Positions 674 through 19,540 of a DNA stretch of 23,817 bases are shown in pieces. Positions within the stretch are counted from its first letter, which is position 1. Each line of letters starts with the position of its first letter. Made by a program: the position numbers and the translations under genes. The notes beneath the pieces are model-generated. The model worked only from the letters and a program-made list of their open reading frames with translations. It made no database searches and was not told the DNA's origin. The stretch comes from a virus, in the IMG/VR virus record IMGVR_UViG_3300010883_011181, positions 1-23,817 of that record, one strand, 5' to 3'.

Positions 674-909
674 TAATGGTTCGTGACACCGGCGAAGAAT
701 TTTTTGACCAGAGTGTGGTAATAGGTGAATTATTTAATCATGGATTTGAGTATAATAAAGACTATATTATTATGGTAGTTCCTAATATTGTAAACATTAC
801 TTATGGTAGAGATGTAGGATACAAAATCGAACAGGAAAAACTGTCTAGTGATATTGAGTCTATTTCTGCCACCAAGATTCGGGCCAATGCTGGATATAAC
901 CCTGTATAA
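565..909 (+). CDS. HxGH nucleotidyltransferase (cytidylyl-/adenylyltransferase superfamily)
   Basis: Two signature motifs of the nucleotidylyltransferase alpha/beta-phosphodiesterase superfamily are present: GRYQPWHKGHTELF near residues 12-25 (HxGH, binding the nucleotide triphosphate) and ISATKIRA near the C-terminus (ISSTKIR-type). Such enzymes transfer NMP from CTP or ATP to a phosphorylated substrate such as phosphocholine, glycerol-3-phosphate or NMN; the substrate is not readable here. At 114 aa it is a minimal single-domain version. ATG 565 is preferred because the PTVQMLGRYQPWH segment looks like the conserved start of phage homologues; ATG 592 is an alternative. It overlaps the kinase by 109 nt and its 3' end overlaps the convergent APH-like gene by 50 nt. 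It may work with that kinase (phosphorylate, then activate with a nucleotide). Confidence 0.8.
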   Translation: MDRRKPTVQMLGRYQPWHKGHTELFKRAHRKTGQVVIMVRDTGEEFFDQSVVIGELFNHGFEYNKDYIIMVVPNIVNITYGRDVGYKIEQEKLSSDIESISATKIRANAGYNPV

Positions 910-2773: not shown

Positions 2774-2778
2774 AGAAA

Positions 2779-2786
2779 TATATATA
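2779..2786. promoter_or_regulatory. Candidate bidirectional late-type promoter (palindromic TATATATA)
   Basis: Only 18 bp separate two divergent start codons. In their exact centre is TATATATA, one mismatch from the T4 late octamer TATAAATA and identical on both strands. There are 5 nt on each side before the ATG at 2773 (minus) and the ATG at 2792 (plus). The same 5-nt spacing follows a perfect octamer at 19482-19489. No other promoter or ribosome-binding site fits in the gap. This is inference from position and similarity; AT-rich DNA makes such octamers common. Confidence 0.4.
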
Positions 2787-2791
2787 CCGAT

Positions 2792-3280
2792 ATGAAATGT
2801 GATATTTGTACCTTTGAAGATATTTTCCATATTTGGGACAAAGACTTGTGGCCCAATAGAGTAAGTAAAATTGAATCTAGAAGTTCTTTATTCTGGGATA
2901 GTCGTTTATGGGAAGGGTTTGGTAACGTATCTATAACAAAGAAACAAAAAGAAATTTGGAAATATGAACCAACTTTCTTTTGCATAAGAGATAATGATAA
3001 AATTATAGGAGTTAATAGTGGGTTTAGAACAGAAAATAAAGTCTATCGTTCCAGAGGATTATACGTTAGTAACTTATATAGATGTAAAGGACTTTCCCAA
3101 AAACTACTTGAAGCAACCATTCAACAAGGAAAACAAGAAGGATGCTCTTGGATCTGGAGCTTACCACGAAAAACAGCTCTCTCATCGTATAGTAAATCGG
3201 GGTTTTATAAGGTTGGAAATTGGATAGATGAAGGCGTTGAATTTGGGCCTAATTGTCTCGCAATAAAACAACTATTATAA
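2792..3280 (+). CDS. GNAT-family N-acetyltransferase
   Basis: A 162-aa single-domain GNAT. The acetyl-CoA-binding core is visible around YRSRGLYVSNLYRCKGLSQ (near residues 85-103), where the RxxGL segment takes the place of the (R/Q)xxGxG/A pyrophosphate loop, followed by the helix KLLEATIQQGKQEG and the YSKSGF motif typical of the last GNAT strand. GNATs transfer acetyl from acetyl-CoA to an amine; the acceptor is unknown. The N-terminal IWDKDLWPNR segment resembles GNATs of other marine T4-like phages as I recall them. It is divergent from the sulfotransferase operon, and its TAA stop overlaps the late promoter of the neck genes (3276-3283). No Shine-Dalgarno precedes its ATG. Confidence 0.78.
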   Translation: MKCDICTFEDIFHIWDKDLWPNRVSKIESRSSLFWDSRLWEGFGNVSITKKQKEIWKYEPTFFCIRDNDKIIGVNSGFRTENKVYRSRGLYVSNLYRCKGLSQKLLEATIQQGKQEGCSWIWSLPRKTALSSYSKSGFYKVGNWIDEGVEFGPNCLAIKQLL

Positions 3281-3283
3281 ATA
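3276..3283 (+). promoter_or_regulatory. T4-type late promoter TATAAATA (gp13 operon)
   Basis: Perfect match to the T4 late octamer recognised by a gp55-type sigma factor, ending 21 nt before the gp13 ATG and overlapping the stop codon of the GNAT gene. With T4 spacing, transcription would start near 3289, leaving a leader of about 16 nt that still holds the strong AAAAAGGAG ribosome-binding site. It is expected to drive gp13-gp16 and read into the ATP-pyrophosphatase genes. Confidence 0.85.
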
Positions 3284-4120: not shown

Positions 4121-4123
4121 CCA

Positions 4124-5095: not shown

Positions 5096-5895
5096 TGTTA
5101 GGACAACAATTTTATCACGAAACTATGCGAAAGATGGTAGTTGCATTTGGTACAATTTTTAATGCAATAACTTTAGTTCGCAGAGACAATGATGGAAACA
5201 TTATACAAACAATGAAAGTACCATTAGCTTATGGACCAAGAGAAAAATTTCTTACTCGTTTAGAGACTGATCCAAATCTTTCTAAACAAGTTGCTGTCAC
5301 TCTTCCCAGAATAGGATTTGAAATTCAAAATCTTACATATGATACTTCTCGTAAATTAAATAGGGTTCAAAAATTTAAAAAAGTAAAGGGAGCAGATTCG
5401 GACCAACTTGATACTCAATATATGCCCGTACCATATAATCTAGATTTTGAATTATATATTCTAGCAAAACAATCTGATGATGCATTGCAGATAGTGGAAC
5501 AAATTCTGCCGTATTTCCAACCCGATTACACTATTACTGTAAAAGATATGGCGGATATGGGAATTTCTAGAGATGTTCCTATTATCTTAAATAGTATCGC
5601 TTATGAAGATAATTATAGAGATGATTTTCAAGCACGTAGAGCAATCATTTATACATTAAGTTTTACGACTAAATTTTATCTATATGGTCCTGTTACTTCC
5701 AGTTCTATCATTAAGACTGCAACAATAGATCAATATACAGATCTGCCTGATAAAGCACCGAAACGTGAACAGAGATATTCTGTCCAAGTTGATCCTATTA
5801 CCGCTGATGCTGATGATAACTTTGGATTTAATGAGACGACCTCATTCTACCAAGATGCACAGGAAATGGATCCGGTAACTGGTACAGATAAATAA
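5095..5895 (+). CDS. 15: Tail terminator / sheath stabiliser gp15 (T4-like)
   Basis: 266 aa, close to T4 gp15 (about 272). Family landmarks are GQQFYHETMRKMVVAFG at the N-terminus, PLAYGPREKFLTRLE, LPRIGFEIQNLTYD, the YNLDFELYILAKQSDDALQI strand-helix segment, and YTITVKDMADMG followed by DVPIILNSIAYEDNY. gp15 caps the finished tail tube and sheath and connects the tail to the neck. It starts within the gp14 stop and ends 14 nt before gp16. Its stop codon region contains a GATAAATA octamer that may serve as an internal late promoter. Confidence 0.93.
   Translation: MLGQQFYHETMRKMVVAFGTIFNAITLVRRDNDGNIIQTMKVPLAYGPREKFLTRLETDPNLSKQVAVTLPRIGFEIQNLTYDTSRKLNRVQKFKKVKGADSDQLDTQYMPVPYNLDFELYILAKQSDDALQIVEQILPYFQPDYTITVKDMADMGISRDVPIILNSIAYEDNYRDDFQARRAIIYTLSFTTKFYLYGPVTSSSIIKTATIDQYTDLPDKAPKREQRYSVQVDPITADADDNFGFNETTSFYQDAQEMDPVTGTDK
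5887..5894 (+). promoter_or_regulatory. Possible internal late promoter GATAAATA before gp16
   Basis: GATAAATA differs from the late octamer only at position 1, which is tolerated in T4-like cyanophage late motifs (NATAAATA). It overlaps the end of gp15 and would start transcription near 5900, immediately before the TAAGGAG site of gp16. It could simply reflect Asp-Lys-stop codons. Confidence 0.3.
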
Positions 5896-5909
5896 TATAA
5901 GGAGTTGTT

Positions 5910-6416
5910 ATGGTGAAAAAACTTGATAAAGAACTTGGTGTAGTAGATGTTGATAAAAATCAATGGCCATCTGGTTTTGAGCTCGGTGTACCATTCGAAG
6001 GCCCCGACGCGACGGCCTCGGATTTAGAAATTGCAGGGGTTGCCCCTTTCGAATCTGATGAAAATACAGTTCCCCAAAAATCAAAAATTAGTCGCTATTC
6101 AACAGAGTTAACGCAGGAGAATGATGTAGATGATGACTACAAATACCAAAGAGAGAACTTTTATAATCTTGTTGAAAGGGGTACAGATGCGATTGATGGA
6201 ATACTTGAACTCGCAAAGGAAGGCGAGCACCCAAGAGCATACGAGGTTGCTGGAAATCTTATCAAACAAGTCGCAGAAGTTGCCGAGAAATTAGGTGATC
6301 TACAAGAGAAGATGAGGAAACTTAAAGAGGTTCCTAATACTGCTCCTAAGAATGTTACCAATGCATTATTTGTTGGTAGTACAGCGGAGTTGCAAAAATT
6401 AATTAAAGGTAAGTAG
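5910..6416 (+). CDS. 16: Small terminase subunit gp16 (T4-like)
   Basis: 168 aa, close to T4 gp16 (about 164). The conserved central region reads YKYQRENFYNLVERG, then AIDGILELAKEGEHPRAYEV, with a long amphipathic helix (IKQVAEVAEKLGDLQEKMRKL) and the VTNALFVGSTAELQKL tail, all typical of T4-like gp16, which forms a ring that selects and regulates packaging of concatemeric DNA by gp17. ATG 5910 has TAAGGAG 5 nt upstream. The N-terminal part contains a short GC-rich patch (about 5998-6045, including an AGGGG-TTG-CCCCT hairpin) and a repeated V-x-PFE motif. Its partner gp17 is not adjacent: 8.8 kb of accessory genes separate them. Confidence 0.9.
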   Translation: MVKKLDKELGVVDVDKNQWPSGFELGVPFEGPDATASDLEIAGVAPFESDENTVPQKSKISRYSTELTQENDVDDDYKYQRENFYNLVERGTDAIDGILELAKEGEHPRAYEVAGNLIKQVAEVAEKLGDLQEKMRKLKEVPNTAPKNVTNALFVGSTAELQKLIKGK

Positions 6417-6421
6417 TTGTT

Positions 6422-7426
6422 ATGAAACTTGAGTGGTTTACTCCACATTATATTCGTATAATGGCTCCTTCTAAAGATTCTAAAAATTATGATGAATGGG
6501 TGAGGAAATTAAAGCGATATCAGAGATTATGTACTAAATTTTTTTCAGTGTGTCTTGTTGATAGATTGGGAGAGTACAATTTTCTTTTTGAAACCCATTC
6601 TCAAGATACTATGATTCCCTTTGAGTATAAAAAAACAGATAGACTTGAAGATCTTTTATATGAAAGAGCATATGAATTAGCCAAGAAAAATGAAATTATT
6701 CAGTTTTTTTGGAGTGGTGGTATTGATTCTACAGCAGCATTATTAGTTCTTAAAGATGTGTGTCCTAAAGATCAATTTTTCATACAAATGACACCAACTT
6801 CTATTGAAGAAAATCCTTTAGTGTGGGAAAAGCTTGTCAAGAATCTTTCTCATAAAATTTATAAGGGCGAACATCTTTTTTCTGTAGCAAATACAAAATA
6901 TCTTGTAGTAGAGTGTGGTTCTGCTGATCAACTTTATAATTCAGCGACAAAGACGACAAAGCTATCGACAATGACAAATGTAAAACGAACTTGGTATATT
7001 AGACGAAGATTCGCATGTGGACATAGAAGATATCGTTTTTTTGCTCATTCTCCTCAACATCAATTAAAATTAGATAATATACAACCATTTTATGATTCAC
7101 CTGATATAGAACAATATTTTATGAATAAAATAATAGATGGTTCTTTAACATACACAGTAAGGGGGCAAGAGGATCCAAATCAAGATTTTACTTCTTCTAA
7201 ATGTGGTCCTATTTACAAAACAATGAAACAGGAATTGAGAGATATTTTAAGAGAGTTTGATAAAGATATGGGCGATAATTTATTGGGAGCATTATCATTG
7301 AGGCCTAATGAAAAATCTCTAGTACTTGCTCATGAAAAGGGAAATCCAAAATGGGGTGTTATGGCAATAACAGAGACAGGTAAAGTTATTCATTCGCTCA
7401 AAGTTAGAAGCAAAGAGGTGATGTAA
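6422..7426 (+). CDS. Asn-synthetase-like ATP-pyrophosphatase, subfamily A copy 1
   Basis: A 334-aa protein with the N-type ATP-pyrophosphatase PP-loop FFWSGGIDSTAALL (SGGIDST at 98-104), which binds the ATP pyrophosphate in asparagine synthetase-like enzymes that adenylate a carboxylate before amidation. There is no N-terminal glutaminase domain: no Cys2, and only ~95 unrelated residues before the loop. The second AsnB signature (GEGADELFGG type) is degenerate here, CGSADQLYNS at 165-174. The C-terminus ends in a small strand motif, GVMAITETGKVIHS, shared with the 10088 paralogue. The gene starts 5 nt after gp16 and abuts the next ATP-pyrophosphatase directly. A basic Arg-rich stretch (around 189-207) is unusual and might bind nucleic acid. 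Substrate unknown. Confidence 0.78.
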   Translation: MKLEWFTPHYIRIMAPSKDSKNYDEWVRKLKRYQRLCTKFFSVCLVDRLGEYNFLFETHSQDTMIPFEYKKTDRLEDLLYERAYELAKKNEIIQFFWSGGIDSTAALLVLKDVCPKDQFFIQMTPTSIEENPLVWEKLVKNLSHKIYKGEHLFSVANTKYLVVECGSADQLYNSATKTTKLSTMTNVKRTWYIRRRFACGHRRYRFFAHSPQHQLKLDNIQPFYDSPDIEQYFMNKIIDGSLTYTVRGQEDPNQDFTSSKCGPIYKTMKQELRDILREFDKDMGDNLLGALSLRPNEKSLVLAHEKGNPKWGVMAITETGKVIHSLKVRSKEVM

Positions 7427-8653
7427 TTGTCTAAAGTTGTTATTGCATTTAGTGACAAACATCTCCAAAGAATAATGAGTTTTTATAATCCTTTAGAGTT
7501 TGAAAAACATAGTTATGATGCTTCATATTATGCAAACATGCCAGAACAAGGTATACATCCATATACTTCACCGTTCTTTAGGGTTCCAGAATATTTTGAT
7601 AATTATCTTTATGCTTTAAGTTCTTTAGTACATTGTCCTGTACCATATGACCGTACTGAAGAATTTAATATGTTAAATTTTCATATAGACCCAATTCCAG
7701 AAGTAGATAAAAATTGGAATAGAACAATTGAAGAAGTTTTTATTGAACGAGCAGAAGAGATTTGGAATCTTAATAAACCAGTACGAGTTTGGTATTCTGG
7801 CGGAATAGATTCCACAGTAGTTCTTATAGCACTTCTTAGGACTAAGAAACCAGAACATGAACTAATAGTTTATCTCAGTGATTTATCTGTAAAAGAAAAT
7901 CCTTCTTTCTATGAAGTTCTTAAAAAAATGAATGATATTACCTTTCAGTGGAATGAGAGAAGTAACATATATGCTTTTGATAATTGGCGTGACAGTACAA
8001 TAAATGTAACAGGGGAAACAGGTGACCCTGTATATGGGAGTTTTGTAGTTGAACATCATATAGACGATGTAGATTCCCCTTGGAAAGATATGATAGAATG
8101 GAAAGATGCTCGATATATACTTAAAGATCAAGATTATAAAAAACCAAGATTTATGGAATTTGCAGAAAACTTTATAAAGAAGTGTCCATTTGAAGTTAGA
8201 ACTACTTTTGACTTTTCGTGGTGGTTAGCATTTTCCATAAAGTGGCAGTGGATAAATGCTAGAATATATGCTCAGTGTGATAATCCTTCTAATTGGCAAA
8301 ACATGATATCTTTTTATTCTTGTCCCGAAGTTCAAAAGTGGAGTATTGTCAATCATGATATGAAGCATAAAGGAACATGGAAGAGCTATAAATGGCCCTC
8401 AAAAGAGTTTATATATAATTATAATAAGGATGCTGATTATAGAGATAATAAAGTAAAAGAAAAAAGTTTACCTGATGCTGGAAGTTCACAAGCAGCGCAA
8501 AATATTCTTCTTATGACATCAGGGGAATATTATCAAAAGACAGAATATAAGAAATATGGAATTGGCGGATTGGACCCCGAAATGGCATTTTTAAATAAGT
8601 GGGATGTGTTCAATAAATCGTTATGGAAAAAATGGCAAAAGATAAAGTTGTAA
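7427..8653 (+). CDS. ATP-pyrophosphatase, subfamily B copy 1
   Basis: 408 aa. The PP-loop is VWYSGGIDSTVVLIALLRTK (SGGIDST at 124-130), preceded by the helix IEEVFIERAEEIWNL that all five paralogues share in some form. The position of the AsnB second motif is NVTGETGDPVYGS (193-205). The C-terminal half is subfamily-specific: a Trp-rich FDFSWWLAFSIKWQW segment, then WSIVNHDMKH, GTWK and YKWPSKEFIY, ending in KWDVFN and WKKWQK. I do not know a named family with this C-terminal half. The start is TTG at 7427, directly after the previous stop, with AGAGGTG 6 nt upstream. No glutaminase domain is present, so ammonia or another nucleophile would have to come from elsewhere. It overlaps the next copy by 31 nt. 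Confidence 0.75.
   Translation: MSKVVIAFSDKHLQRIMSFYNPLEFEKHSYDASYYANMPEQGIHPYTSPFFRVPEYFDNYLYALSSLVHCPVPYDRTEEFNMLNFHIDPIPEVDKNWNRTIEEVFIERAEEIWNLNKPVRVWYSGGIDSTVVLIALLRTKKPEHELIVYLSDLSVKENPSFYEVLKKMNDITFQWNERSNIYAFDNWRDSTINVTGETGDPVYGSFVVEHHIDDVDSPWKDMIEWKDARYILKDQDYKKPRFMEFAENFIKKCPFEVRTTFDFSWWLAFSIKWQWINARIYAQCDNPSNWQNMISFYSCPEVQKWSIVNHDMKHKGTWKSYKWPSKEFIYNYNKDADYRDNKVKEKSLPDAGSSQAAQNILLMTSGEYYQKTEYKKYGIGGLDPEMAFLNKWDVFNKSLWKKWQKIKL
7745..7828 (+). repeat. Near-identical 84-nt direct repeat in PP-loop region (other copy 9055-9138)
   Basis: The DNA around the PP-loop of the first two subfamily B genes matches over 84 nt with four differences, all synonymous (Lys AAA/AAG, Gly GGC/GGT, Ser TCC/TCT, Thr ACA/ACT). 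Flanking sequence is more divergent. This indicates recent duplication or gene conversion restricted to the catalytic segment. Confidence 0.85.
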
Positions 8654-9960
8654 TAGAACTAGGTGGTAGATTTGCGAATAGATTAGTTCGTTATTATAAT
8701 CCCCTTGAATTAGAACAACCACAACAGGAGTGGATACGAGACCCCATTCTTTCTGGCACTAATGTTTTAAATCCAAAAAATATCAAAGGGTGTAGGTCTA
8801 ATCAAGTATTTTGGTATAATAATATACCAGAGCCTGGCAAAAATCCATATTTTGGTATTGCTGATAGAGCTTATAGTTTATCTAGTCATAGAGAGGGTGA
8901 ATATTTTGGTAATTATATGAGAGTGCTCAGTGAATTAGTTAGATGTCCAATCCCCTATGATAGAACAGGTGAATTTAATGTTTATAATTATTTTATTGAT
9001 CCCATACCAAAAGTACCTCAAGGATGGAATAGAACTTTTGAAGAATTGGTTTTAGAACGAGCAGAAGAGATTTGGAATCTTAATAAGCCAGTACGAGTTT
9101 GGTATTCTGGTGGAATAGATTCTACTGTAGTTCTTATATCATTACTCAGAACAAAAAAACCAGAACATGAATTAATAGTATTTATGGGTGAACCCTCAAA
9201 AGTAGAAAATCCTATTTTTTTTGAGGTTCTTAAAAAAATGGATAATATTACAATTCAGTGGAACGATCCTAGTAATTTCTGGTCAATTGATAATTGGTGT
9301 GATGATTCAATAAATGTAACAGGAGAACCAGGCGATCAAGTATATGGAAGTTTTGTATTAGAAAATCATGAGGATGAAATAAATTCACATTGGTCTAATA
9401 TGTTACAATGGGAAGATTGTTGTTACATGTATAAGGAAGATGATTATAGACTTGATTATCACAGGCCAAGATTTATGGAATTTGCAGAAGAGTATATTAA
9501 AAAATGTCCATTTGAAATTAAAAATACTTTTGATTTTACTTGGTGGTTAGCATTTTCTATAAAGTGGCAATGGACTACAAGTTATATTCCATTTCATTTG
9601 GAAAACCCTTCTAATTGGCATAACATGATATCTTTTTATAATTTTCCAGAAATGCAGATGTGGAGTATTGTGAATCATGACTTGAAACATAGGGGGACTT
9701 GGAAAACATACAAGTGGCCCTCTAAAGAATTTATTTACGAATACAATAAGGATAATAATTACCTTAATAACAAAACTAAGGAAAAAAGTATACCGAAAAC
9801 AGTGTCAATGATTAACAAATTTGCACCCAACCATCTTTTAATGACTAGTGGTAAGTTTTATAAGAAGATAGATGATGGTTTAGATCCCGAAATATTGCGT
9901 TTAGACAAATGGGATATTTTTAATAAACCTGTGTGGAAAAAATGGCAGACGATGTTGTAA
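8623..9960 (+). CDS. ATP-pyrophosphatase, subfamily B copy 2
   Basis: 445 aa and the longest of the five. The N-terminus DKVVIELGG then NRLVRYYNPLE matches the other B copies but is followed by an extra ~45 residues (about 37-80) missing in copies 1 and 3. PP-loop SGGIDST at 162-168; second site NVTGEPGDQVYGS; then the B-specific FDFTWWLAFSIKWQW, WSIVNHDLKH, GTWK and YKWPSKEFIY, and the KWDIFN ... WKKWQ tail. The start may be ATG 8623 or ATG 8632; both lie inside the end of copy 1 (31- or 22-nt overlap) and neither has a clear Shine-Dalgarno, suggesting translational coupling. The stop is followed directly by a late promoter. Role: an ATP-dependent adenylation step inferred from the PP-loop; no substrate can be read. 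Confidence 0.75.
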   Translation: MEKMAKDKVVIELGGRFANRLVRYYNPLELEQPQQEWIRDPILSGTNVLNPKNIKGCRSNQVFWYNNIPEPGKNPYFGIADRAYSLSSHREGEYFGNYMRVLSELVRCPIPYDRTGEFNVYNYFIDPIPKVPQGWNRTFEELVLERAEEIWNLNKPVRVWYSGGIDSTVVLISLLRTKKPEHELIVFMGEPSKVENPIFFEVLKKMDNITIQWNDPSNFWSIDNWCDDSINVTGEPGDQVYGSFVLENHEDEINSHWSNMLQWEDCCYMYKEDDYRLDYHRPRFMEFAEEYIKKCPFEIKNTFDFTWWLAFSIKWQWTTSYIPFHLENPSNWHNMISFYNFPEMQMWSIVNHDLKHRGTWKTYKWPSKEFIYEYNKDNNYLNNKTKEKSIPKTVSMINKFAPNHLLMTSGKFYKKIDDGLDPEILRLDKWDIFNKPVWKKWQTML

Positions 9961-9963
9961 TTG

Positions 9964-9971
9964 TATAAATA
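9964..9971 (+). promoter_or_regulatory. T4-type late promoter TATAAATA (second ATP-pyrophosphatase/TRAP/gp17 unit)
   Basis: Perfect late octamer 3 nt after the stop of subfamily B copy 2. Transcription should begin near 9977, giving a leader of about 110 nt to the ATG at 10088. It would drive the A2 and B3 ATP-pyrophosphatases, the DctQMP transporter and, by read-through, gp17. Confidence 0.85.
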
Positions 9972-10020
9972 ACTCGAGCAGATAGGATATACTTTAGCAA
10001 GTAATAACCTTTAGTCTTAA

Positions 10021-10049
10021 AGAGACAATATAGTTAAGAGAGAGACAAT
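10021..10049 (+). repeat. AGAGACAAT direct repeats in the long 5' leader
   Basis: The 127-nt intergenic stretch 9961-10087 holds the late promoter, a weak CTTTA/TAAAG hairpin near 10011-10024, and two copies of AGAGACAAT with starts exactly 20 bp apart (10021-10029 and 10041-10049), followed by AGGA 6 nt before the ATG at 10088. The spacing puts the repeats on the same DNA face, as for a dimeric protein site, or they may act in the mRNA leader. No known element is recognised. Confidence 0.5.
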
Positions 10050-10087
10050 CTTTTTCTGCTCACTAAAAAATTGGACTAGGATATAGT

Positions 10088-11212
10088 ATGACTAAATTTT
10101 TAATGGTAAAAAAATCGTATAAAAATGCGTGGAAACGATATTTAAAAAATGAAAGCGGTGAATACGAAAATTTTTCGAAGGAATTTAAAGAAGAATTTCA
10201 TTTTAAGATTGAAGAAGAACAACAATATTTAAGAAAATATGCTAGACCGCATTATTGGTTTTTAAATGACCAGTTAGGAGAAAATGAATTTGTTGTTAAC
10301 ATGAGTGATGCTCATTTTAACGGTGCTGGTTTAAAATATGAATATACAAACAATCTCCCCTCCCTTAAAGATATTCTATTAGAAAGAGCTCAGAAAATTT
10401 CCAATATGGGTAAAAAGATTCAACTCTTTTACTCAGGTGGAATAGACAGTACAGCTGTACTTCTTGCTTTTTATGAAGTCTGTCCTAAAGATCAACTTGA
10501 AATTATTATGGCTGGGGGAGAACTAGCACCGAAAAATAATCCAAAAGCATTTAAAGATATAGTTCAACATTTAGATCATACTTTTACAGATTATCTTATG
10601 AGCGCTGCTGATTTAAGTCAACATGTTTATACTACAGGGTGTGAAGCAGATAGACTATTCGGTGCTGATGGATATACTCTGTTGATGGAACATGCTCAGC
10701 GAGATGGGGATGATTATAAAATAGATGAAGAGTCAGCGCCCACGACAGATTCACCAGAAAATTGGCAGTGGAATTGGGATAGGTGGTGGGGGATAACCAG
10801 ACATACCTACTTAACACAATCCTTTAGACTTCTATCAGACATTTCACAAGAAAAAATAGATATAGAAAATTATCAACCATTATTTTTTGATAAACGGGTA
10901 CAACAGTTTGCAATAAATTTGCATATTGATAAAGAGCATAAATGGTATAATTCAGGCGAAAGAGCAGATAAAGAACGGTATCGACAAGGTAAGATATGGA
11001 TACGGGATTTTATTTATGAAATGAGTGGCGATAGAGAATATGCTTATGGCAGTGGAAATACAAAGACTGCAGCAAAGGATTTTGATAAAAGAAAAGGAAG
11101 CGTTATGCCAATGGTCTTTAATGTTATTGCTATTACCGAAGACGGCACAATTGTTCATCATAAAAATATTATGGACTATATGAACGCTGATTGTTTAACT
11201 ATAGATGTATAA
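10088..11212 (+). CDS. Asn-synthetase-like ATP-pyrophosphatase, subfamily A copy 2
   Basis: 374 aa. PP-loop LFYSGGIDSTAVLL (SGGIDST at 116-122) and the clearest AsnB-type second motif in the set, GCEADRLFGAD at 184-194 (compare GEGADELFGGY), support an asparagine-synthetase-like synthetase domain that forms an acyl-adenylate. It shares VCPKDQ after the PP-loop and a final NVIAITEDGTIVHH segment with the 6422 copy, defining subfamily A. The first ~90 residues are a charged, Lys/Glu-rich region with no glutaminase motif. A Trp-rich insertion NWQWNWDRWWG occurs near residues 222-232. ATG 10088 has AGGA 6 nt upstream and a late promoter 116 nt upstream. It overlaps the B3 gene by 8 nt, repeating the A-then-B arrangement of the first cluster. 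Confidence 0.8.
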   Translation: MTKFLMVKKSYKNAWKRYLKNESGEYENFSKEFKEEFHFKIEEEQQYLRKYARPHYWFLNDQLGENEFVVNMSDAHFNGAGLKYEYTNNLPSLKDILLERAQKISNMGKKIQLFYSGGIDSTAVLLAFYEVCPKDQLEIIMAGGELAPKNNPKAFKDIVQHLDHTFTDYLMSAADLSQHVYTTGCEADRLFGADGYTLLMEHAQRDGDDYKIDEESAPTTDSPENWQWNWDRWWGITRHTYLTQSFRLLSDISQEKIDIENYQPLFFDKRVQQFAINLHIDKEHKWYNSGERADKERYRQGKIWIRDFIYEMSGDREYAYGSGNTKTAAKDFDKRKGSVMPMVFNVIAITEDGTIVHHKNIMDYMNADCLTIDV

Positions 11213-12407
11213 TTTGGATGATCCTCCACTGGATAAAGTAATTATAGCATGTGGTGCAGCGAATAAACGTCTAGTTCGACATTTTAATCCTTTAGACTTT
11301 GCAAAACCACAAGAAGAGTATACTGGTAGATTTCAACGAATACCAGAACGCTTTGATAATTATCTTTATGCATTGGGACAACTAGTAAATTGTCCCAATC
11401 CATATGATCGTACAGATCGTTTTAATATTTTAAATTATCATATTACTCCAATATGGCCTTTTCCTGATGGATGGAATGAAACATTTGAAGAAGTTTTTCT
11501 TCAACGTGCTGCAAGCATTTGGACAAAGAATAAACCTATCCGCTTGTGGTGGTCAGGGGGTATAGATTCAACTACCGCATTAGTAGCATTACTCAGAACA
11601 AAAAAACCAGAACATGAATTAATCGTGTATATGGGAGATCCTTGTGTAGAAGAAAATCCTAATATGTATGATAAGATTAAAAAAATGGATGATGTTAAAA
11701 TTCAATGGAATGATGCTAATAATATCTGGTCTTTCGATAATTTTACGGATGGTACTATAAATGTAACGGGTGAACCAGGCGATCCTTTTTATGGCTCCTA
11801 TGTTGTAGAAAATCATATTGATGAAATTAATAACCCTTGGACCGATATGCTTCAGTGGGAAGATATTAACCTTGTTGTTAAACCAGAAAATTTTTCAAAG
11901 TTTATGGAATTTGCTGAAATCTTCAATTCAAAATGTCCTTTCGAAGTTAAAACTGTTTTTGATTTTACATGGTGGTTAGCATTTGCTATTAAGTGGCAGT
12001 GGATAGTTGCTAGATTTTATCCCTTTATGGATAACCCATCTAGATGGCAAAATATGATATCATTTTACAATTGTGATACGATACAGTGGTGGAGTATTAT
12101 CAATCATGATCTAAAACACAAAGGAACATGGAAAACCTATAAATGGCCCTCAAAAGAATTTATCTATAATTATAATAAAGATGCTGATTATAGAGATAAC
12201 AAGGTAAAAGAACGGAGTATGCCTAAGACATTACCAAACCATCAGGGACATTATAATCTACATCTTCTTATGGCATCAGGAGAATATTTTAATCAAACAG
12301 AAGAAGAAGTTTATGGTATTAAGGGAATAGACCCCGAGCTCGCACTTTATCATAAGTGGGATATATTTAATGAAGATTTATGGAAGAAATGGAAAAAGAT
12401 GTTATGA
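11205..12407 (+). CDS. ATP-pyrophosphatase, subfamily B copy 3
   Basis: 400 aa, with all subfamily B landmarks: DKVIIACG at the N-terminus, PP-loop LWWSGGIDSTTALVALLRTK (SGGIDST at 117-123), NVTGEPGDPFYGS, FDFTWWLAFAIKWQW, WSIINHDLKH, GTWK, YKWPSKEFIY and the KWDIFN ... WKKWKK end. Its C-terminal stretch NYNKDADYRDNKVKE is identical to copy 1 but differs from copy 2, whereas around the PP-loop copies 1 and 2 are closest, a mosaic relationship. The start overlaps the A2 gene by 8 nt with no visible Shine-Dalgarno. Its stop overlaps the DctQ start (ATGA), so it is physically and probably translationally linked to the TRAP transporter. Confidence 0.76.
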   Translation: MYNLDDPPLDKVIIACGAANKRLVRHFNPLDFAKPQEEYTGRFQRIPERFDNYLYALGQLVNCPNPYDRTDRFNILNYHITPIWPFPDGWNETFEEVFLQRAASIWTKNKPIRLWWSGGIDSTTALVALLRTKKPEHELIVYMGDPCVEENPNMYDKIKKMDDVKIQWNDANNIWSFDNFTDGTINVTGEPGDPFYGSYVVENHIDEINNPWTDMLQWEDINLVVKPENFSKFMEFAEIFNSKCPFEVKTVFDFTWWLAFAIKWQWIVARFYPFMDNPSRWQNMISFYNCDTIQWWSIINHDLKHKGTWKTYKWPSKEFIYNYNKDADYRDNKVKERSMPKTLPNHQGHYNLHLLMASGEYFNQTEEEVYGIKGIDPELALYHKWDIFNEDLWKKWKKML

Positions 12408-12856
12408 TAACCCTAGTAAAATTTTATGCTTGGTTTATATTAGCAATAGTTCTATTAATTGTTTCCAATGTATTAGGTAGATATTTCTTTGATTTACGAT
12501 TTGATTTTGCAGTTGATGTTTCTTGGCAATTATATGGAATGTTAATTATACTAGGGGCAAGTTATAGTCTCGCAAAGGGTACTCATATAAGAACCGATAT
12601 CTATTGGAACCGTTTTTCAGATAAAACTAAAGCATTAATTGATTTGGGGGGATATTGTTTGTTCTTTCCTACTTTTGGTATCCTTTCTTATATTTCAGCA
12701 TTAGACACATATAAGAGCATTTTAATTAACGAAAAGAGCTCTGCAACCATGTCTCAATTAATAATATGGCCTTTGAAAATAGGGATAACTTTTGGTTTAC
12801 TTTTATTGTTATATCAAGGATTTATTGAAATGAGGAAATGCATTAAACGATGTTAG
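12404..12856 (+). CDS. dctQ: TRAP transporter small permease DctQ
   Basis: About 150 aa with four predicted membrane helices, the DctQ/YiaM size and topology: helix 1 ending in the conserved NVLGRYFF, helix 2 in WQLYGMLIILGASYSLAKG followed by THIRTDIYW (the family's G-x-H-[IV]-R-x-D signature), and two C-terminal helices. DctQ pairs with DctM in the inner membrane and docks the periplasmic binding protein in Na+-driven organic acid uptake. ATG 12404 forms an ATGA overlap with the preceding stop; an in-frame ATG at 12380 would add 8 charged residues encoded by the out-of-frame tail of the previous gene and is less likely. It overlaps dctM by 7 nt. A complete, intact gene. Confidence 0.9.
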   Translation: MITLVKFYAWFILAIVLLIVSNVLGRYFFDLRFDFAVDVSWQLYGMLIILGASYSLAKGTHIRTDIYWNRFSDKTKALIDLGGYCLFFPTFGILSYISALDTYKSILINEKSSATMSQLIIWPLKIGITFGLLLLLYQGFIEMRKCIKRC

Positions 12857-14106
12857 CGATTGTTATGTTGGTGTCAATGATATTGGGTATCTTTGTTGGT
12901 ATTCCTGTCAGTTTCACTCTTATATTTCTTGCATTAGGATTTGGATACGTCAGTATGGGAGAGAATGTTTTCGATCTCGCATACTATAATCTTGTCGGCG
13001 GGTTATCAAACGAAGTGTTTATGGCAATACCCATGTTTATATTCATGGGGTATATCTGTGAACGCGCAGGTCTAATAGAAGGTTTATTCGACAGTCTAAA
13101 AAAGATTACTGGAAATTTATATTTTGTTGTTATAGTTATCGCAGTTTTAATAAGTCTTGCTACAGGAGTTGTGGGCGCGTCTGTTACTCTGTTAGGAATT
13201 ATGGCAGCACCTCAAATGATGAGACTAGGTTATAATCCAAAACTAACTGCTGGAGTCATCGCTGGTGGGGGTTCTTTGATTATGATACCGCCTTCTGTGC
13301 CTCTTATTGTTATGGCACCGACCATGAATATTAGTATTATTGATTTGTATGCTGGAAGTCTAATACCAGGCCTGATGATTGCAGTAATGTATATTATATA
13401 TTGTTTTCTTGTTGATAAGACAGAGAAGCCCCCGACAGAACTTTCTATTAAAAATATTGGTAGAGCTCTTCTTGATATACTTCCACTTGCACTTCTTATA
13501 TCTGCCGTGTTGGGATCGATGCTGTTTGGACTTGCAACGTCTACTGAAGCAGGAGCATTTGGTGCGGTTGGTGCTTTATTACTTGCATGTAGGAAACTTA
13601 CATTTACTACTTTACAGGAAGCACTATTGAAAACATGTGATACGTCTGCTGTTGTGATGTTACTTGCAATTGCATCTACTATTTTTGGAGCAGTATTCAC
13701 TTCTTTGGGTGGAGATACAATTATAGTAAATTCACTTAATTCTCTACCCATACCACCTTGGGCTTTAGTTGGGTGTATATTAGCTTTATGTCATTTGTTG
13801 GGTTGGCCTTTTGAATGGCCTGTGGTAGTATTGGTATTTGTTCCAATATTTATGCCTGCTCTTGTTGCATCAGGCGTAGATATGTTATGGTTCGCAGTTT
13901 GTTTGGGTATTGTTATTCAGACTGCATATCTGACTCCGCCAGTTGCTCTAACGTCTTATTATTTGAAACAGGTAATGCCGGAATGGGATTTGAGTATGAT
14001 ATTTAAAGCAATGATGCCATTTATGTGGATACAGGTTCTTGCGGTTATTATATTGTTTTTCATACCCAGTATTGCAACTTGGCTTCCGGACCTACTAAAT
14101 AAATAA
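12850..14106 (+). CDS. dctM: TRAP transporter large permease DctM
   Basis: 418 aa, the usual DctM length (about 425), hydrophobic along its whole length with roughly a dozen membrane helices. Family motifs are present: FMAIPMFIFMGYICERAGL, the GVIAGGGSLIMIPPSVPLIV loop with the Pro-Pro-Ser that lies at the substrate/Na+ site region, MNISIIDLYAGSLIPG, a STEAGAFGAVGALLL half-repeat counterpart, and TAYLTPPVALTSYYL near the end. DctM is the ion-transporter-superfamily subunit that carries substrate with Na+. The start overlaps the dctQ stop, with GAGGAA 12 nt upstream. No frameshift or stop interrupts the gene, so it looks functional. It is followed by dctP after 36 nt. Confidence 0.93.
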   Translation: MLAIVMLVSMILGIFVGIPVSFTLIFLALGFGYVSMGENVFDLAYYNLVGGLSNEVFMAIPMFIFMGYICERAGLIEGLFDSLKKITGNLYFVVIVIAVLISLATGVVGASVTLLGIMAAPQMMRLGYNPKLTAGVIAGGGSLIMIPPSVPLIVMAPTMNISIIDLYAGSLIPGLMIAVMYIIYCFLVDKTEKPPTELSIKNIGRALLDILPLALLISAVLGSMLFGLATSTEAGAFGAVGALLLACRKLTFTTLQEALLKTCDTSAVVMLLAIASTIFGAVFTSLGGDTIIVNSLNSLPIPPWALVGCILALCHLLGWPFEWPVVVLVFVPIFMPALVASGVDMLWFAVCLGIVIQTAYLTPPVALTSYYLKQVMPEWDLSMIFKAMMPFMWIQVLAVIILFFIPSIATWLPDLLNK

Positions 14107-14142
14107 GAACAGTGAATTTATAAAAGATTGAAGGGGTTAATT

Positions 14143-15222
14143 ATGAAATCTATTTTAGCAGCATTCGTTGCACTTATTCTTACATCAACTACAGTTTTTG
14201 CAGATACGGTTATTCGTATTGCAAGCTCCTATCCCGCCATTAGTACTTTTAATGAACAAGCACAGTTTATCGCAGATAGAGTTAAAATTCTAACTGATGG
14301 TAAAGTCCAAATGGAAATTAAACCCGCTGGTGCTTTAGTTCCCGCTTTCCAAGTTCTTGATGCAACAGCATCTGGTGCTGTGGGGGGTGCGTGGACACAG
14401 AGTTACTATTGGGTAGGAAAGGATAAAACCCTTTCTTTATTTAATAGCCCTTTAGGTGGTCCATATGGAATGGATGGTATAGATTTTCTGGGGTGGATGT
14501 TTCATGGTGGAGGATTAGAGCTCTATCGTACATTTTATCAAGATGTATTGAAACTAGACGTAGTACCATTTCCTTCCATGCCCACACAGAATCAACCTTT
14601 GGGTTGGTTTCATCGTCCTATTAAAAACCTTGCAGATCTGAAGAACTTCAAGTGTAGACAGACAGGTATTAATGTAGAGTTGTATGCTCGTATGGGTATG
14701 CAGACTATTGGTATGCCGGGTGGTGAAATTCTTGCGGCTGGACAAAAGGGTGTAATTAATTGCGCTGAATTTGTCGGTGGGCTTGAGGATGAACGTCTAG
14801 GATTTCCTACCATCTGGAAGTACTACTATCTGAATAGTTTGCATGAACATTCTAATACTGGTGATCTTCTGATTAATGGTAAAGTTTGGAGAGGACTTAC
14901 TAAACAACAACAGACTTCAATTCGTTCTGCTGCATATGAATCCTATCTATGGTGGTTGACTTGGGTGCAAGCAGAAAATGGTAAAGCACTTGCACGAATG
15001 GTGAAGAAGCATGGTGTTAAGGTTATGCAAACTCCATCTGATATTCTAGTAGCAGAATTAAAGACTATAGATCAAATGTTTGTAGAGGAATCTGCAAAGA
15101 ACCTTTGGTTTAAGAGGGTTCTTGGCAGTCAGAAACGCTGGGCAAGAAAAGTAGTTCCTTATAAAAATAAAGCATTTACACCATATAGTTACGCTGCTGA
15201 ACATTATTGGGGTAATAAATAA
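14143..15222 (+). CDS. dctP: TRAP periplasmic substrate-binding protein DctP (2-oxo-acid/TakP-like clade)
   Basis: 359 aa with a clear Sec signal peptide (MKS followed by a hydrophobic core, cut after about residue 20 at VFA-DT), so the mature protein is exported to the host periplasm. DctP landmarks: KCRQTG near 170-175, containing the Arg (172) expected to pair with a substrate carboxylate, MPGGEILAAGQKGVINCAEF at 191-210, and DERLGF. The PGGEI...GVI-AE-[WF]-VG arrangement resembles the TakP/lactate-binding clade rather than the C4-dicarboxylate DctP, so 2-oxo or hydroxy acids are plausible substrates (inference). ATG 14143 is chosen because AAGGGG lies 6 nt upstream; an upstream in-frame TTG at 14128 lacks a site. 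gp17 begins 4 nt after its stop, tying it to the packaging gene. Confidence 0.9.
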   Translation: MKSILAAFVALILTSTTVFADTVIRIASSYPAISTFNEQAQFIADRVKILTDGKVQMEIKPAGALVPAFQVLDATASGAVGGAWTQSYYWVGKDKTLSLFNSPLGGPYGMDGIDFLGWMFHGGGLELYRTFYQDVLKLDVVPFPSMPTQNQPLGWFHRPIKNLADLKNFKCRQTGINVELYARMGMQTIGMPGGEILAAGQKGVINCAEFVGGLEDERLGFPTIWKYYYLNSLHEHSNTGDLLINGKVWRGLTKQQQTSIRSAAYESYLWWLTWVQAENGKALARMVKKHGVKVMQTPSDILVAELKTIDQMFVEESAKNLWFKRVLGSQKRWARKVVPYKNKAFTPYSYAAEHYWGNK

Positions 15223-15226
15223 GGCT

Positions 15227-16873
15227 ATGTCAGATCCTAATGTCTATCATGGCAATCCTAATCTTAAAGTAGCGCATATAGATCAAGAGTGGACAAAGGA
15301 GCGTATTGAAGAATATCAAAAATGTATGGAACAACCTCAATACTTCATTGAAACATATTTAAAAATTGTTTCTTTGGATGAGGGCCTAATTCCTTTTAAG
15401 ATGTATGATTTTCAAAAGGAAATTATAGGCACATTTCATAATAATCGGTTTACTATATGCAAATTGCCCAGACAGTCTGGAAAGTCTACAACAGTTATTG
15501 CATATCTACTTTATTATGTTTTGTTTAATGAAAGCGTAAATGTCGCAATTCTTGCTAACAAAGCATCAACAGCGCGGGACCTACTGTCACGCTTGCAATT
15601 AGCATATGAAAATTTGCCTTCGTGGTTACAACAGGGAGTTATGTCATGGAATAAAGGTAGTTTGGAGCTGGAAAATGGTTCAAAAATTCTTGCTGCATCT
15701 ACTAGCGCTAGTGCTGTTCGCGGCGGTAGTTATAATATCATTTTCTTGGATGAATTCGCCTACGTTCCAGCTAATGTTGCTGAACAGTTCTTTTCCTCTG
15801 TGTACCCCACCATTACATCTGGTACAACTACAAAAGTTATGATCGTTTCTACACCGCATGGTATGAATATGTTTTATAGAATGTGGGTCGATGCTGAAGA
15901 AAAACGAAGTTCATATATACCAATTGAAGTACATTGGAGTGAAGTTCCAGGCCGAGATGAAGCTTGGAAAAAAGAAACTATATCTAATACATCTGAGTCT
16001 CAATTTAGTTCAGAGTTTGAATGTGAATTTTTAGGTTCTATTGATACTCTCATAACACCTGCTAAATTAAAAACATTAGCATATAGAGTACCTACACAAT
16101 CCAATGCAGGCCTTGATGTTTATGTGAAACCTATAGAAAATAATACGTATATGCTCACAGCGGATGTTTCCCGTGGAACTAAAAATGATTATTCTGCTTT
16201 TGTTGTTTTTGATATTACAGAAATGCCGTATAAAATGGTTGCAAAGTATAGGGACAATGAAATTAAACCACTAGTGTTTCCTGCTAAAATACATGATGTT
16301 GCAATGGCATATAATCAAGCATATGTGTTAGTTGAGGTAAATGATATAGGGGAACAAGTAGCAAACACTTTACAGTTTGACTTGGAGTATGACAACCTAG
16401 TTATGGCTTCTATGCGTGGTCGCGCAGGGCAAGTCCTTGGCGCTGGGTTCTCAGGGGGTAGAGCGCAGTTGGGGGTAAGAACCACTAAAACGGTTAAGAA
16501 GGTTGGGTGTTCAAATCTCAAACAAATGATTGAGGATAACAAATTAGTAATAGAAGATTTTGATACAATTTCTGAATTAACAACATTTATTGTAAAGGGT
16601 AGTTCGTTTCAAGCAGATGATGGATGTAATGATGATTTAGTTGCTTGTTTATTTATTTTTGGTTGGGCTTCAGATCAGACATATTTTAAGGAATTAACGG
16701 ATAATGATATGCGGCAAACTATGTTGAAAGAACAACATGACGCATTAGAACAGGATATGGCTCCATTCGGGTTTATTATAGATGGACTAGAAGATGATAA
16801 TATCGGTAATATGGTTGATGAATATGGCACAACGTGGAGTGCTGTAGTAAGAGACTATGAAACAGATTGGTAA
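15227..16873 (+). CDS. 17: Large terminase subunit gp17 (T4-like)
   Basis: The 548-aa packaging motor-nuclease has an N-terminal ATPase with Walker A RQSGKST (82-88), Walker B IIFLDE (Asp175 with catalytic Glu176) and the coupling-type VSTPHGMNMFYRMW segment, then an RNase-H-like nuclease with likely metal ligands Asp313 (TADVSRG), Glu370 (LVEVND) and Asp470 (CNDDLVACL). It pumps DNA into the prohead at the portal (gp20) and cuts the concatemer. T4 gp17 is 610 aa; this one is somewhat shorter. AATAAATA ends 5 nt before the ATG, while AAGG is only 2 nt away and too close to be a good ribosome site. Its stop abuts, tail to tail, the stop of the minus-strand TRAP permease. Confidence 0.95.
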   Translation: MSDPNVYHGNPNLKVAHIDQEWTKERIEEYQKCMEQPQYFIETYLKIVSLDEGLIPFKMYDFQKEIIGTFHNNRFTICKLPRQSGKSTTVIAYLLYYVLFNESVNVAILANKASTARDLLSRLQLAYENLPSWLQQGVMSWNKGSLELENGSKILAASTSASAVRGGSYNIIFLDEFAYVPANVAEQFFSSVYPTITSGTTTKVMIVSTPHGMNMFYRMWVDAEEKRSSYIPIEVHWSEVPGRDEAWKKETISNTSESQFSSEFECEFLGSIDTLITPAKLKTLAYRVPTQSNAGLDVYVKPIENNTYMLTADVSRGTKNDYSAFVVFDITEMPYKMVAKYRDNEIKPLVFPAKIHDVAMAYNQAYVLVEVNDIGEQVANTLQFDLEYDNLVMASMRGRAGQVLGAGFSGGRAQLGVRTTKTVKKVGCSNLKQMIEDNKLVIEDFDTISELTTFIVKGSSFQADDGCNDDLVACLFIFGWASDQTYFKELTDNDMRQTMLKEQHDALEQDMAPFGFIIDGLEDDNIGNMVDEYGTTWSAVVRDYETDW

Positions 16874-18199
16874 TTAAAACCACACAAATATAAACGGCAT
16901 AATGTATAACGGCCATGCAATGTACATGGATGTTAATGCGGTTATTATTGGATTTGTTTTCGCAATCTTGGCTGCAGTAAATGATGATAATGCTACAGGT
17001 GGAGTTATCATAGACAATACCCCAAAATATAATACAAATAAATGTGCGTATATATCAGTTATTCCCGCTTCAATCAGAGCGGGGGCAGCGACTATTGCGA
17101 CAAGTAGATAGGTAGAACTTGTCGGCATACCCATTCCTAGAATAATACACAGTATTGCAACCATTATCAATAGTAATATGGAATTTCTCCCAGACACTAT
17201 GTTTAGTATGGATGTTATTTGAAAACTTAGCCCCGTCTGGTCCATAACACCAATTATAAGCCCAATTGCTGCACTTAGTATAATAAGACTATACATTGAA
17301 TCTGATATAGATTTGATGAGATTTGTCTTGACAGAATTTTTATATTCTGGTATAGTGTCTAAGGATACTTTGGGTGTTGTTAAAAGTAGTAAAGTATAAA
17401 ATGCAATCGCCGGGGGTATCGCAACCCAAACCACTTCCCAATAAGAAATCATAAGAATTTCTGCCATTAGAAATGCTGCAGCACCCATAACAGGCGGCAT
17501 CAATTGTCCACCAGTAGATGCAACCGCTTCATATGCTGCTGCTCTTACTTTTGTATATCCACACTGAATCATCAGAGGAATAGTCAGTTGTCCCGTACTC
17601 ATTACATTTGCGACTGCACTACCAGAAACACTACCAAATATAGCAGAGGATAAAATTGCTACACGCCCAGGCGACTTAACACGTTTAAGAATAAATCTAA
17701 TCATTATATCAATAATACCCAGACGTACTAAAATTTGTCCTGCTAGAACAAATAAAAATACAATACCACACATAATAGAAATAGACATACCAAGCATAGC
17801 GGTGTTATCTATTACAATATGAGATATAAGGTCCAGATATTTGATATCCAGAAATAGGGGATATGTAAGAAATCCTAGAAGAATTACCCCAAATGCTTTA
17901 CCACTGGTAAGATAACAACTTATTAATACTAAAATGCAAATCGGTACGGATATAAAATATAATAGTAATTTTTCGTAATTTGCATATTCCGTTAGATATG
18001 GATAATAAAGGAATAATAATATACCTATTATGAGCAAAGGAAGATCAAATTTTTTAAATGCGTATCCTAGAGCGGATAATAGTATCAATATAAACCATTG
18101 TTCATCAAAAATAGGGTATCCGATATAAAAATCAATATCGGATACACCTAGAATTAAAAATAATGGTAAGAGATACTTACTCAAGTTTAAGGATATCAT
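16874..18199 (-). CDS. Compact fused-type TRAP permease (TAXI system)
   Basis: 441 aa, almost entirely hydrophobic. It carries the conserved core of fused TRAP permeases (DctQ and DctM in one chain): IFGSVSGSAVANVMSTGQ near 187-203, YEAVASTGGQLMPPVMGAAA near 223-241, LGMGMPTSSTYLLVA near 360, and YFGVLSMITPPVALSSF near the end. The first ~130 residues are additional helices in the position of the DctQ-like part. Fused permeases are usually above 600 aa, so this one is strongly shortened in its N-terminal and inter-domain parts but keeps both half-repeat signatures. It overlaps the TAXI binding-protein gene by 23 nt, and only a weak GGAG is seen upstream. It would form a complete uptake system with the TAXI protein. 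Intact reading frame. Confidence 0.87.
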   Translation of the reverse strand: MISLNLSKYLLPLFLILGVSDIDFYIGYPIFDEQWFILILLSALGYAFKKFDLPLLIIGILLFLYYPYLTEYANYEKLLLYFISVPICILVLISCYLTSGKAFGVILLGFLTYPLFLDIKYLDLISHIVIDNTAMLGMSISIMCGIVFLFVLAGQILVRLGIIDIMIRFILKRVKSPGRVAILSSAIFGSVSGSAVANVMSTGQLTIPLMIQCGYTKVRAAAYEAVASTGGQLMPPVMGAAAFLMAEILMISYWEVVWVAIPPAIAFYTLLLLTTPKVSLDTIPEYKNSVKTNLIKSISDSMYSLIILSAAIGLIIGVMDQTGLSFQITSILNIVSGRNSILLLIMVAILCIILGMGMPTSSTYLLVAIVAAPALIEAGITDIYAHLFVLYFGVLSMITPPVALSSFTAAKIAKTNPIITALTSMYIAWPLYIMPFIFVWF

Positions 18200-19139
18200 A
18201 TGCTAGTTTCGCTCCATTATGAATGGGAACTCCACCAGTAAAGGCATTCATTTTACTCCTATCAAAGTCACTTACCATCTTTGATGATTTTTTGTATATA
18301 TCTGCCCATGAGTATAGGGCAAGAACTACTGCTTGAACAGTAGAGTCTTTTACATCCTTATGTGTCCATAACATATATGGAAAGGTTAAAATACGGGTGG
18401 GTTTTCGAATGGATGGCCACCTTTTCTTAGGGTGTACCGTAATAACTTGAAATCCAGGCCAACCATTTAGAAGGCGTTTTTCTGCTTCACCACCATTTAA
18501 AGATAACATACGAATACCGCCATGCCGTATATTTCGTGCATGTAGTTTCTTTGCATGTCCAGCACCGACAGCAATAATGGTAACATCTACATTACCTTTC
18601 TGAAATGCAGCCCAATTAGCAGGAAGTGATGTAACTGGCACAGTTTGTACATCTTTCCATGATAGGGCCGGATTGGAATTGAGTAGTTTGTGCTTAATAT
18701 TCCAGTGAAAGCCAGGTGCTCCACGAAACCCAGAAGGTACACGTCTTCCTTTTAAATCGTTATAACTTTTAATATTAGAATCGTGTCTTACAGCAAGTCC
18801 TGTTTTAAAGAAATGTAGATTCGCTACAAAACGCAGATTTTTGTGTGCTTTCTTGGATGTACGGATACCATTGTAACCCCAATTAAAATCAGTAGGATTA
18901 CTGATACCAAAATTAATTTCATTCTTATCCACCTTTTCCAGATAAATTTGAGTTCCCCTATGAGGAATTGGAACTAGGGAAATTCCTGATCGTCTCATTG
19001 TCTTTGCTAATGCAACACCTGTTTGAAAATTAGCACTACCCTTTGTGGTTCCTAATGTGAGTGCTGAAGCAACACCATTTGAAAATAAACCAATTAAACA
19101 ACTTAACACCAAAACACTGATAACTTTTATATAAGACAT
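18177..19139 (-). CDS. TAXI-family TRAP substrate-binding protein
   Basis: 320 aa with an N-terminal signal peptide (hydrophobic core 5-22, likely cut after VASA at about residue 26), so it is periplasmic. The mature start LTLGTTKGSANFQTGVALAK fits the TAXI family (TRAP-associated extracytoplasmic immunogenic), as do INFGISNPTDF, NDLKGRRVPSGFRGAPG and the C-terminal PIHNGAKLAYD segment corresponding to the usual P-x-H-x-GA-x-x-Y-x-E end. TAXI proteins deliver organic acids, amino acids or similar to fused TRAP permeases, which is exactly the next gene. AAGGAG lies 12 nt before the ATG. The gene is 34 nt downstream of the HNH-like gene on the same strand, probably one late transcript. Substrate not predictable. 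Confidence 0.9.
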   Translation of the reverse strand: MSYIKVISVLVLSCLIGLFSNGVASALTLGTTKGSANFQTGVALAKTMRRSGISLVPIPHRGTQIYLEKVDKNEINFGISNPTDFNWGYNGIRTSKKAHKNLRFVANLHFFKTGLAVRHDSNIKSYNDLKGRRVPSGFRGAPGFHWNIKHKLLNSNPALSWKDVQTVPVTSLPANWAAFQKGNVDVTIIAVGAGHAKKLHARNIRHGGIRMLSLNGGEAEKRLLNGWPGFQVITVHPKKRWPSIRKPTRILTFPYMLWTHKDVKDSTVQAVVLALYSWADIYKKSSKMVSDFDRSKMNAFTGGVPIHNGAKLAYDILKLE

Positions 19140-19173: not shown

Positions 19174-19476
19174 CTAAATAAGTTCTATTACATCGTTATC
19201 TAATTTTATCCAACAATTAGAACATAAAATTCGAGAAATATTGATTAGGCTGATGACCTCTTTTCTACTTTCGTCATTAGTACCTACTCGTTTGGATAAT
19301 TTTCTAATTTCTCGATTGTGGGGATAAAATTTAAGACAAATGGTTTCACTTTCGCCACAATGTTGGCAAGATTTATCAGAGAGGTATTCATTTAATACTT
19401 GTATTCTTTTCTGATAATTACGACGAGCTACTCTTTTGATAGTCTCTTTGTATTTTTCATAGTGATCATTCGTCAT
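19174..19476 (-). CDS. Degenerate HNH-like zinc-ribbon protein
   Basis: A 100-aa basic protein. A lysine/arginine-rich helix (KETIKRVARRNYQKRIQVLNEY) leads to CQHCGE (near 38-43), LKFYPH and, 45 residues on, CSNCW. This is the layout of small phage HNH proteins (basic helix, CxxCGE, LxFDH, K...EI, CxNCH), but the catalytic DH is PH here and the final His of CxNCH is Trp. It keeps the four zinc cysteines but has probably lost nuclease activity. It may be a decayed homing endonuclease or a DNA-binding derivative. It is the first gene of the minus-strand operon ahead of the TAXI/TRAP genes. TATAAATA ends 5 nt before the ATG and there is no Shine-Dalgarno, implying a leaderless mRNA. Confidence 0.68.
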   Translation of the reverse strand: MTNDHYEKYKETIKRVARRNYQKRIQVLNEYLSDKSCQHCGESETICLKFYPHNREIRKLSKRVGTNDESRKEVISLINISRILCSNCWIKLDNDVIELI

Positions 19477-19481
19477 ATTCT

Positions 19482-19489
19482 TATTTATA
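19482..19489 (-). promoter_or_regulatory. T4-type late promoter on the minus strand (HNH-TAXI-TRAP operon)
   Basis: A perfect TATAAATA on the minus strand. With T4 spacing (octamer at -13 to -6), the transcript would begin at the A of the ATG at 19476. It is the only promoter-like site seen for this operon, and it lies 43 bp from the divergent gp18 late promoter. Confidence 0.72.
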
Positions 19490-19532: not shown

Positions 19533-19540
19533 TATAAATA
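19533..19540 (+). promoter_or_regulatory. T4-type late promoter TATAAATA (gp18 operon)
   Basis: Perfect late octamer 57 nt before the gp18 ATG. Predicted start near 19546 gives a leader of about 52 nt ending in the AAAAAGGAG ribosome site. It forms a divergent pair with the minus-strand octamer at 19482-19489, in a 121-nt intergenic region that holds no other feature I recognise. Confidence 0.88.

Follow-up and report, generated by a model that had tools for sequence, protein, structure and literature searches.

Predicted organic acid importers in cargo slots flanking the terminase gene of a marine T4-like phage

The window, that is, the whole 23,817-base stretch of an IMG/VR virus record that was analyzed here, carries two TRAP importers, one on each side of the large terminase gene gp17. 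The transporter genes are real, viral, and under selection, and they are placed in late transcription units. The simplest explanation would be that they bring in acids to support the making of virions. We consider it likely that they encode importers of 2-oxo or 2-hydroxy acids and, probably, of glutamate-like acids, which would be made late and would feed the host during virion production from cargo slots flanking the terminase; their expression, Na+ coupling, substrates, and benefit are what we infer.

Two transporter units in the window

The genes gp13 to gp20 are present in T4-like order, with gp13-gp16 upstream of dctQMP and gp18-gp20 downstream. The isolates nearest by gp17 are Methylophilales phage Melnitz (69% identity) and Pelagibacter phage HTVC008M (65%); they share the structural gene order of the window, but no TRAP genes are annotated in their homologous region. 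The window is a piece of a marine T4-like phage that is probably lytic. The region 860-3280 holds a minus-strand kinase-like gene and two sulfotransferase-like genes and then, before gp13, an acetyltransferase-like gene (all named by eye), and this block recurs in relatives.

The first cargo is bounded on the left by gp16 (5910..6416, +), the small terminase as judged by position and synteny with relatives, and on the right by gp17 (15227..16873, +), the large terminase matching PF03237/PF17289 and phrog_2. Between them lie five PP-loop ATPase-like genes carrying an SGGIDST motif (ORFs in 6422..12407, +), followed by intact dctQ, dctM, and dctP in one operon. A sequence-only reading had described the three subunits as intact and in order, and Pfam searches agree: dctQ, the small permease subunit with a 4-TM scaffold (12404..12856, +), matched PF04290 (E = 1.8e-18); dctM, the 418-aa large permease subunit with the elevator/transport domain (12850..14106, +), matched PF06808 (E = 6.6e-62) over positions 1-412 of 413 and SiaQM/IseQM entries in the PDB; and dctP, the periplasmic solute receptor (14143..15222, +), matched PF03480 (E = 4.7e-29). 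No stops or truncation were found in the three genes. The gene junctions in that reading were all confirmed: the start of dctQ (12404) and the stop of the PP-loop gene before it (last base 12407) share an ATGA, dctM and dctQ overlap by 7 nt, and a 4-nt gap separates the dctP stop (15222) from the gp17 start (15227). The start of dctP is likelier the ATG at 14143 than the TTG at 14128 that opens the longest frame; the ATG is preceded by AAGGGG, and the Sec-type signal MKSILAAFVALILTSTTVFA-D, recognized by eye, follows it, as the claim of a signal peptide on DctP had it. The PP-loop genes, which are part of the same cargo block, gave no match to the Pfam families tested, and their homologues accompany transporter cargo in several contigs. 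In addition, phrog_31178, listed as 'unknown function', weakly matches DctP (14128-15222) and could be re-annotated.

The sequence-only reading caught dctQMP and missed a second TRAP importer, of TAXI type, on the minus strand between gp17 and gp18 (16874-19139). Its receptor gene taxiP (18177..19139, −) encodes a TAXI-type protein with a signal peptide, MSYIKVISVLVLSCLIGLFSNGVASA (by eye), that matched PF16868 (9.5e-14) and scored 96.8 bits against TIGR02122 (cut-off 84.35). The permease gene taxiM (16874..18199, −) matched PF06808 (7.7e-55). Against TIGR02123, the fused permease, the window protein reached 313.7 bits (cut-off 320.65) and a relative in L062 reached 330.3. Because its 441 aa are below the size of a full-length fused QM protein (~600 aa or more), we call it a reduced TAXI-TRAP relative. 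The viral taxiM proteins (430-447 aa) are ~200 residues shorter than their bacterial matches (626-712 aa) and lack ~95-100 C-terminal residues, a middle insert of ~60 or more, and part of the N-terminus. A TAXI receptor with a single permease polypeptide is also the arrangement of VcGluPQM (PMC11574862). The taxiM model (pLDDT 73) matches SiaQM structures with a TM of about 0.6, the same SiaQM/IseQM folds matched by DctM. The first gene of the minus-strand unit is a conserved small HNH-like gene (19174..19476, −; phrog_3106, 4e-6). Both TRAP systems occur together in five other contigs (L026, L027, L028, L029, and L013/L062). A weak match of phrog_6856 ('unknown function') to the TAXI receptor (18177-19139) was also found, and this family could be re-annotated.

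Viral relatives and variable cargo slots

At least 26 further viral contigs encode DctPQM (24 plus two from further scans), with DctM identities of 68-88%. The carriers span several genome positions and at least four phage lineages: dctQMP lies upstream of gp13 in L003-L007 and L021, before another gene block preceding gp13 in L011/L012, downstream of the major capsid gene in L002 and L006, beside DNA polymerase and helicase in L008, and beside ribonucleotide reductase in L016. The carriers have a T4-like terminase, gp23, or both; one of them is a jumbo-phage-like contig of 228 kb that gave no gp17 match. Their gp17 identity to the window is 77-81% in some, 59% in one (154 kb), and 34-35% in two (116 and 244 kb), both of which have gp23. 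Where two phages share only 35% identity in their terminases, their DctMs are still ~70% identical, suggesting transfer between phage lineages. A second DctP-family protein is encoded in L002 (9486-10568, +) and L016 (7945-9024, +); the two are 70% alike, are barely related to the window DctP, and have no obvious signal peptide.

In a tree of 117 DctM sequences, 14 distinct viral DctMs form one clade with no bacterium inside (SH-aLRT 100), on a stem of length 2.0 within alpha- and betaproteobacterial sequences; the viral taxiMs likewise form one virus-only clade (support 100/100). The best bacterial DctM identity was 49-52% among the matches listed, so that a closer relative may exist. No DctP match at E ≤ 1e-90 was found in 297 genomes of one order (probably SAR11), and DctM identity was at most 52% in 398 genomes of the same phylum; on these two results, a recent pick-up of dctQMP from Pelagibacter-like hosts was rejected. 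Among phage isolates there was no close TRAP match, and the matches, of only ~23-28% identity, came mostly from unannotated or fragmentary records, Salmonella genome contigs included.

The median dN/dS was 0.10 for dctQ, 0.08 for dctM, 0.10 for dctP, 0.13 for taxiM, and 0.18 for taxiP, compared with 0.06 for gp17. The viral DctMs are under strong purifying selection, and dctQMP are metabolic genes of cellular type that virus genomes retain stably. A set of host genes picked up recently and now drifting to loss would fit a patchy module in a variable slot, but this is very improbable given the long stem, the lack of a close bacterial relative among the matches listed, the strong purifying selection, and the reading frames free of stops and truncation.

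The sequence-only reading had proposed that trees without viral relatives would mark these genes as contamination; instead, many viral DctPQM relatives and a viral-only DctM clade were found. In favor of an assembly chimera, or of bacterial sequence misassigned to a virus, is that the exact dctP-gp17 junction was seen only in the window contig. This explanation is largely refuted, and we regard it as having almost no chance of being correct, since the 26 further viral contigs encode DctPQM, several of them alongside phage hallmark genes, the DctM clade is virus-only, the overlap of a PP-loop homologue with the dctQ start recurs in L011/L012, and there is no composition break along the window.

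That dctQMP lies within a phage late operon, as first read, was supported, with the amendment that the site is a cargo slot of variable content, which close relatives leave unfilled: gp16 adjoins gp17 without cargo in L209, L210, and L214, and among the 80 contigs nearest by gp17, one has dctQMP in the flank that was covered. Across the same 80 contigs, the gp17-HNH interval was empty in 51. It was filled by the TAXI system in 8 (and in 5 cut intervals), by a TctA-family permease in 3 (and in 1 cut interval), by a receptor together with an ABC permease in another 3, and by other genes in 6; three cut intervals showed nothing. The TctA-family permeases in the TAXI slot (L209 11632-13473, −; L214 6823-8661, −; and L220) have an extra C-terminal membrane part. 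In L213 (2695-4394, −), L226, and L231, the slot holds an NMT1-like receptor with a signal peptide and an ABC permease, and no ATPase gene was adjacent to this pair within the gp17-HNH interval. The gp16-gp17 slot of L227 contains a PP-loop-like gene and after it, at 3470-6052 (+), a putative exported receptor, which has an apparent signal peptide and no Pfam match, and TctA. In the 228-kb jumbo-phage-like contig (L009), a TctA-family permease (13854-15146, +) lies two genes after dctP, and the intervening gene is PP-loop-like.

Receptor pocket and predicted transport

The solved receptors nearest to DctP were 7ug8, a ketoacid-binding protein (E = 8e-46), and TakP of Rhodobacter sphaeroides (2hzk, E = 6e-42; also 2hzl). 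In TakP, pyruvate is held by Arg177 and Tyr100, and the cation by Gln156, Glu214, and Glu240 together with the Trp215 carbonyl (PMC1839085). The alignment with 7ug8 and 2hzk pairs TakP Y100, Q156, R177, E214, and E240 with DctP Y89 (codon 14407-14409), Q151 (14593-14595), R172 (14656-14658), E209 (14767-14769), and E235 (14845-14847), all on the plus strand, so that all ligand side chains are kept, including the selectivity arginine R177 (R172 in DctP). TakP W215, which gives the cation its main-chain oxygen only, is replaced by F210 in DctP, as by F in 7ug8, and TakP I47 by F. The residues R172, Y89, Q151, E209, E235, and F210 are invariant across 13 viral DctPs. The AlphaFold model of DctP had a pLDDT of 49, and the pocket reading therefore rests on the alignment. 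Because the TakP ligand residues are aligned and invariant in the viral set, our best guess for the ligand is a cation-assisted 2-oxo or 2-hydroxy monocarboxylate, which upholds the TakP-like pocket proposed in the sequence-only reading.

DctM aligns end to end, at low identity, with SiaQM (7qha, 7qe5, and 8thi) and isethionate IseQM (9pym). Glu322 of the viral DctM aligns with HiSiaM Asp521, as in PpSiaM, whereas the acid at HiSiaM Asp304 is not kept and aligns with Ser111. DctPQM would carry out Na+-driven uptake: DctP would be exported, would bind a cation and a small monocarboxylate of the 2-oxo or 2-hydroxy type, and would hand the acid to DctQ/DctM, which would carry it inward with Na+ by elevator movement. 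The reduced TAXI-TRAP may import a second acid in the same way. Glutamate-like acids are the commonest known ligands of TAXI receptors (PMC12344293). The second acid would most likely be glutamate- or 2-oxoglutarate-like.

Virus-borne uptake genes are known, such as cyanophage pstS (PMC6359870) and a tctA domain hit on a SUP05 viral contig (eLife 03125). Those examples amount to lone receptors, transporters made from one gene, or a domain hit, whereas the window carries complete receptor and permease sets; its dctQMP are virus-borne and in the order Q-M-P, whereas the nearest bacterial loci are P-first. Beyond the tctA domain hit, nothing was found in the literature on TRAP genes in phages, and full sets for carboxylate import by several subunits seem not to have been described there. 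The arrangement that the sequence-only reading called unusual is recurrent rather than a one-off.

Late promoters and the proposed role in infection

TATAAATA is a T4-type late-promoter motif. Its exact sites in the window include the late promoter of gp13 (3276..3283, +), conserved in 24 of 28 relatives; a site at 9964..9971 (+), in a 127-nt gap that is followed by the last two PP-loop genes, by dctQMP, and by gp17; the late promoter of the HNH-taxiP-taxiM unit (19482..19489, −), conserved in 53 of 58 relatives; and that of gp18 (19533..19540, +), conserved in all 53 distinct relatives. The distance of the motif to gp18, HNH (−), and gp13 is nearly fixed across relatives, and it was upstream of gp17 in 0 of 62. 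Three of the seven exact sites lie wholly, and a fourth partly, within the only 444 non-coding bases of the window. The number of sites does not exceed what chance would give, since 15 of 100 shuffles have as many, and the late-promoter argument therefore rests on their position and conservation. A generic sigma-70 scan gave sites no more numerous than in shuffles. The late-promoter reading of dctQMP proposed earlier is backed by conservation in relatives, although the nearest exact site is 2.4 kb upstream of dctQ and separated from it by two PP-loop genes; L002/L025 have a site 13 nt ahead of the dctQ match. Judging from these sites, 9964 and 3276 would drive transcription of dctQMP and gp17, and 19489, on the opposite strand, that of the TAXI unit.

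A conserved RNA hairpin of 13 pairs was found in the 5' coding part of taxiM (18116..18145, −), ~50 nt after its start, with 94% of cells paired. Eight of the 13 pairs are changed on both sides, and the covariation score exceeded all 500 shuffles and all slid versions. Synonymous recoding with phage codon usage reached the stability of the hairpin in 0-3 of 1000 trials for each of 18 sequences, indicating that the encoded protein does not by itself account for it. Rfam gave no match at this hairpin or anywhere in the window. The hairpin could lower permease output relative to the receptor or protect the receptor message.

If late promoters drive both importers, carbon skeletons would be taken in during particle assembly, when the transporter genes of the host would be off. 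Starvation is common among marine hosts, and the importers might serve mainly a prolonged or dormant infection of starved cells rather than virion production; this is improbable, as both units carry the motif of the T4-type late promoter, which is active when particles are built. Phages use membrane proteins for exclusion, and the TRAP proteins might be made for purposes other than feeding, namely envelope exclusion of phages, a receptor decoy, or an ion leak preparing lysis. Such a role would suit late-promoter motifs common to the TRAP units and structural genes, but we hold it to be unlikely: every side chain by which DctP would bind its ligand is the same in 13 viral sequences, the three subunits are retained together at a dN/dS of ~0.1, and unrelated importers (TctA type and ABC receptor-permease) replace TAXI in its slot, suggesting that import is what these cargoes have in common. 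Given the virus-only branches of both importers, it is probable that viruses of this kind supply small organic acids to the dying host during particle building.

More broadly, we give about even chances to a model in which marine T4-like phages have interchangeable importer slots with late promoters flanking the terminase, where TRAP, TAXI-TRAP, TTT, and ABC systems are swapped, in which DctPQM and the mini-TAXI are old virus-only lineages, and in which the TAXI hairpin sets the receptor-to-permease ratio. The shortened TAXI permease may be the smallest workable form of that transporter, and through the swappable slot one could ask directly what nutrient is limiting for virus production in a given water. 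Should the importers function, some marine phages would keep the cell eating dissolved organic acids until lysis, beyond plundering existing stores, which would bear on the viral movement of carbon in the sea.
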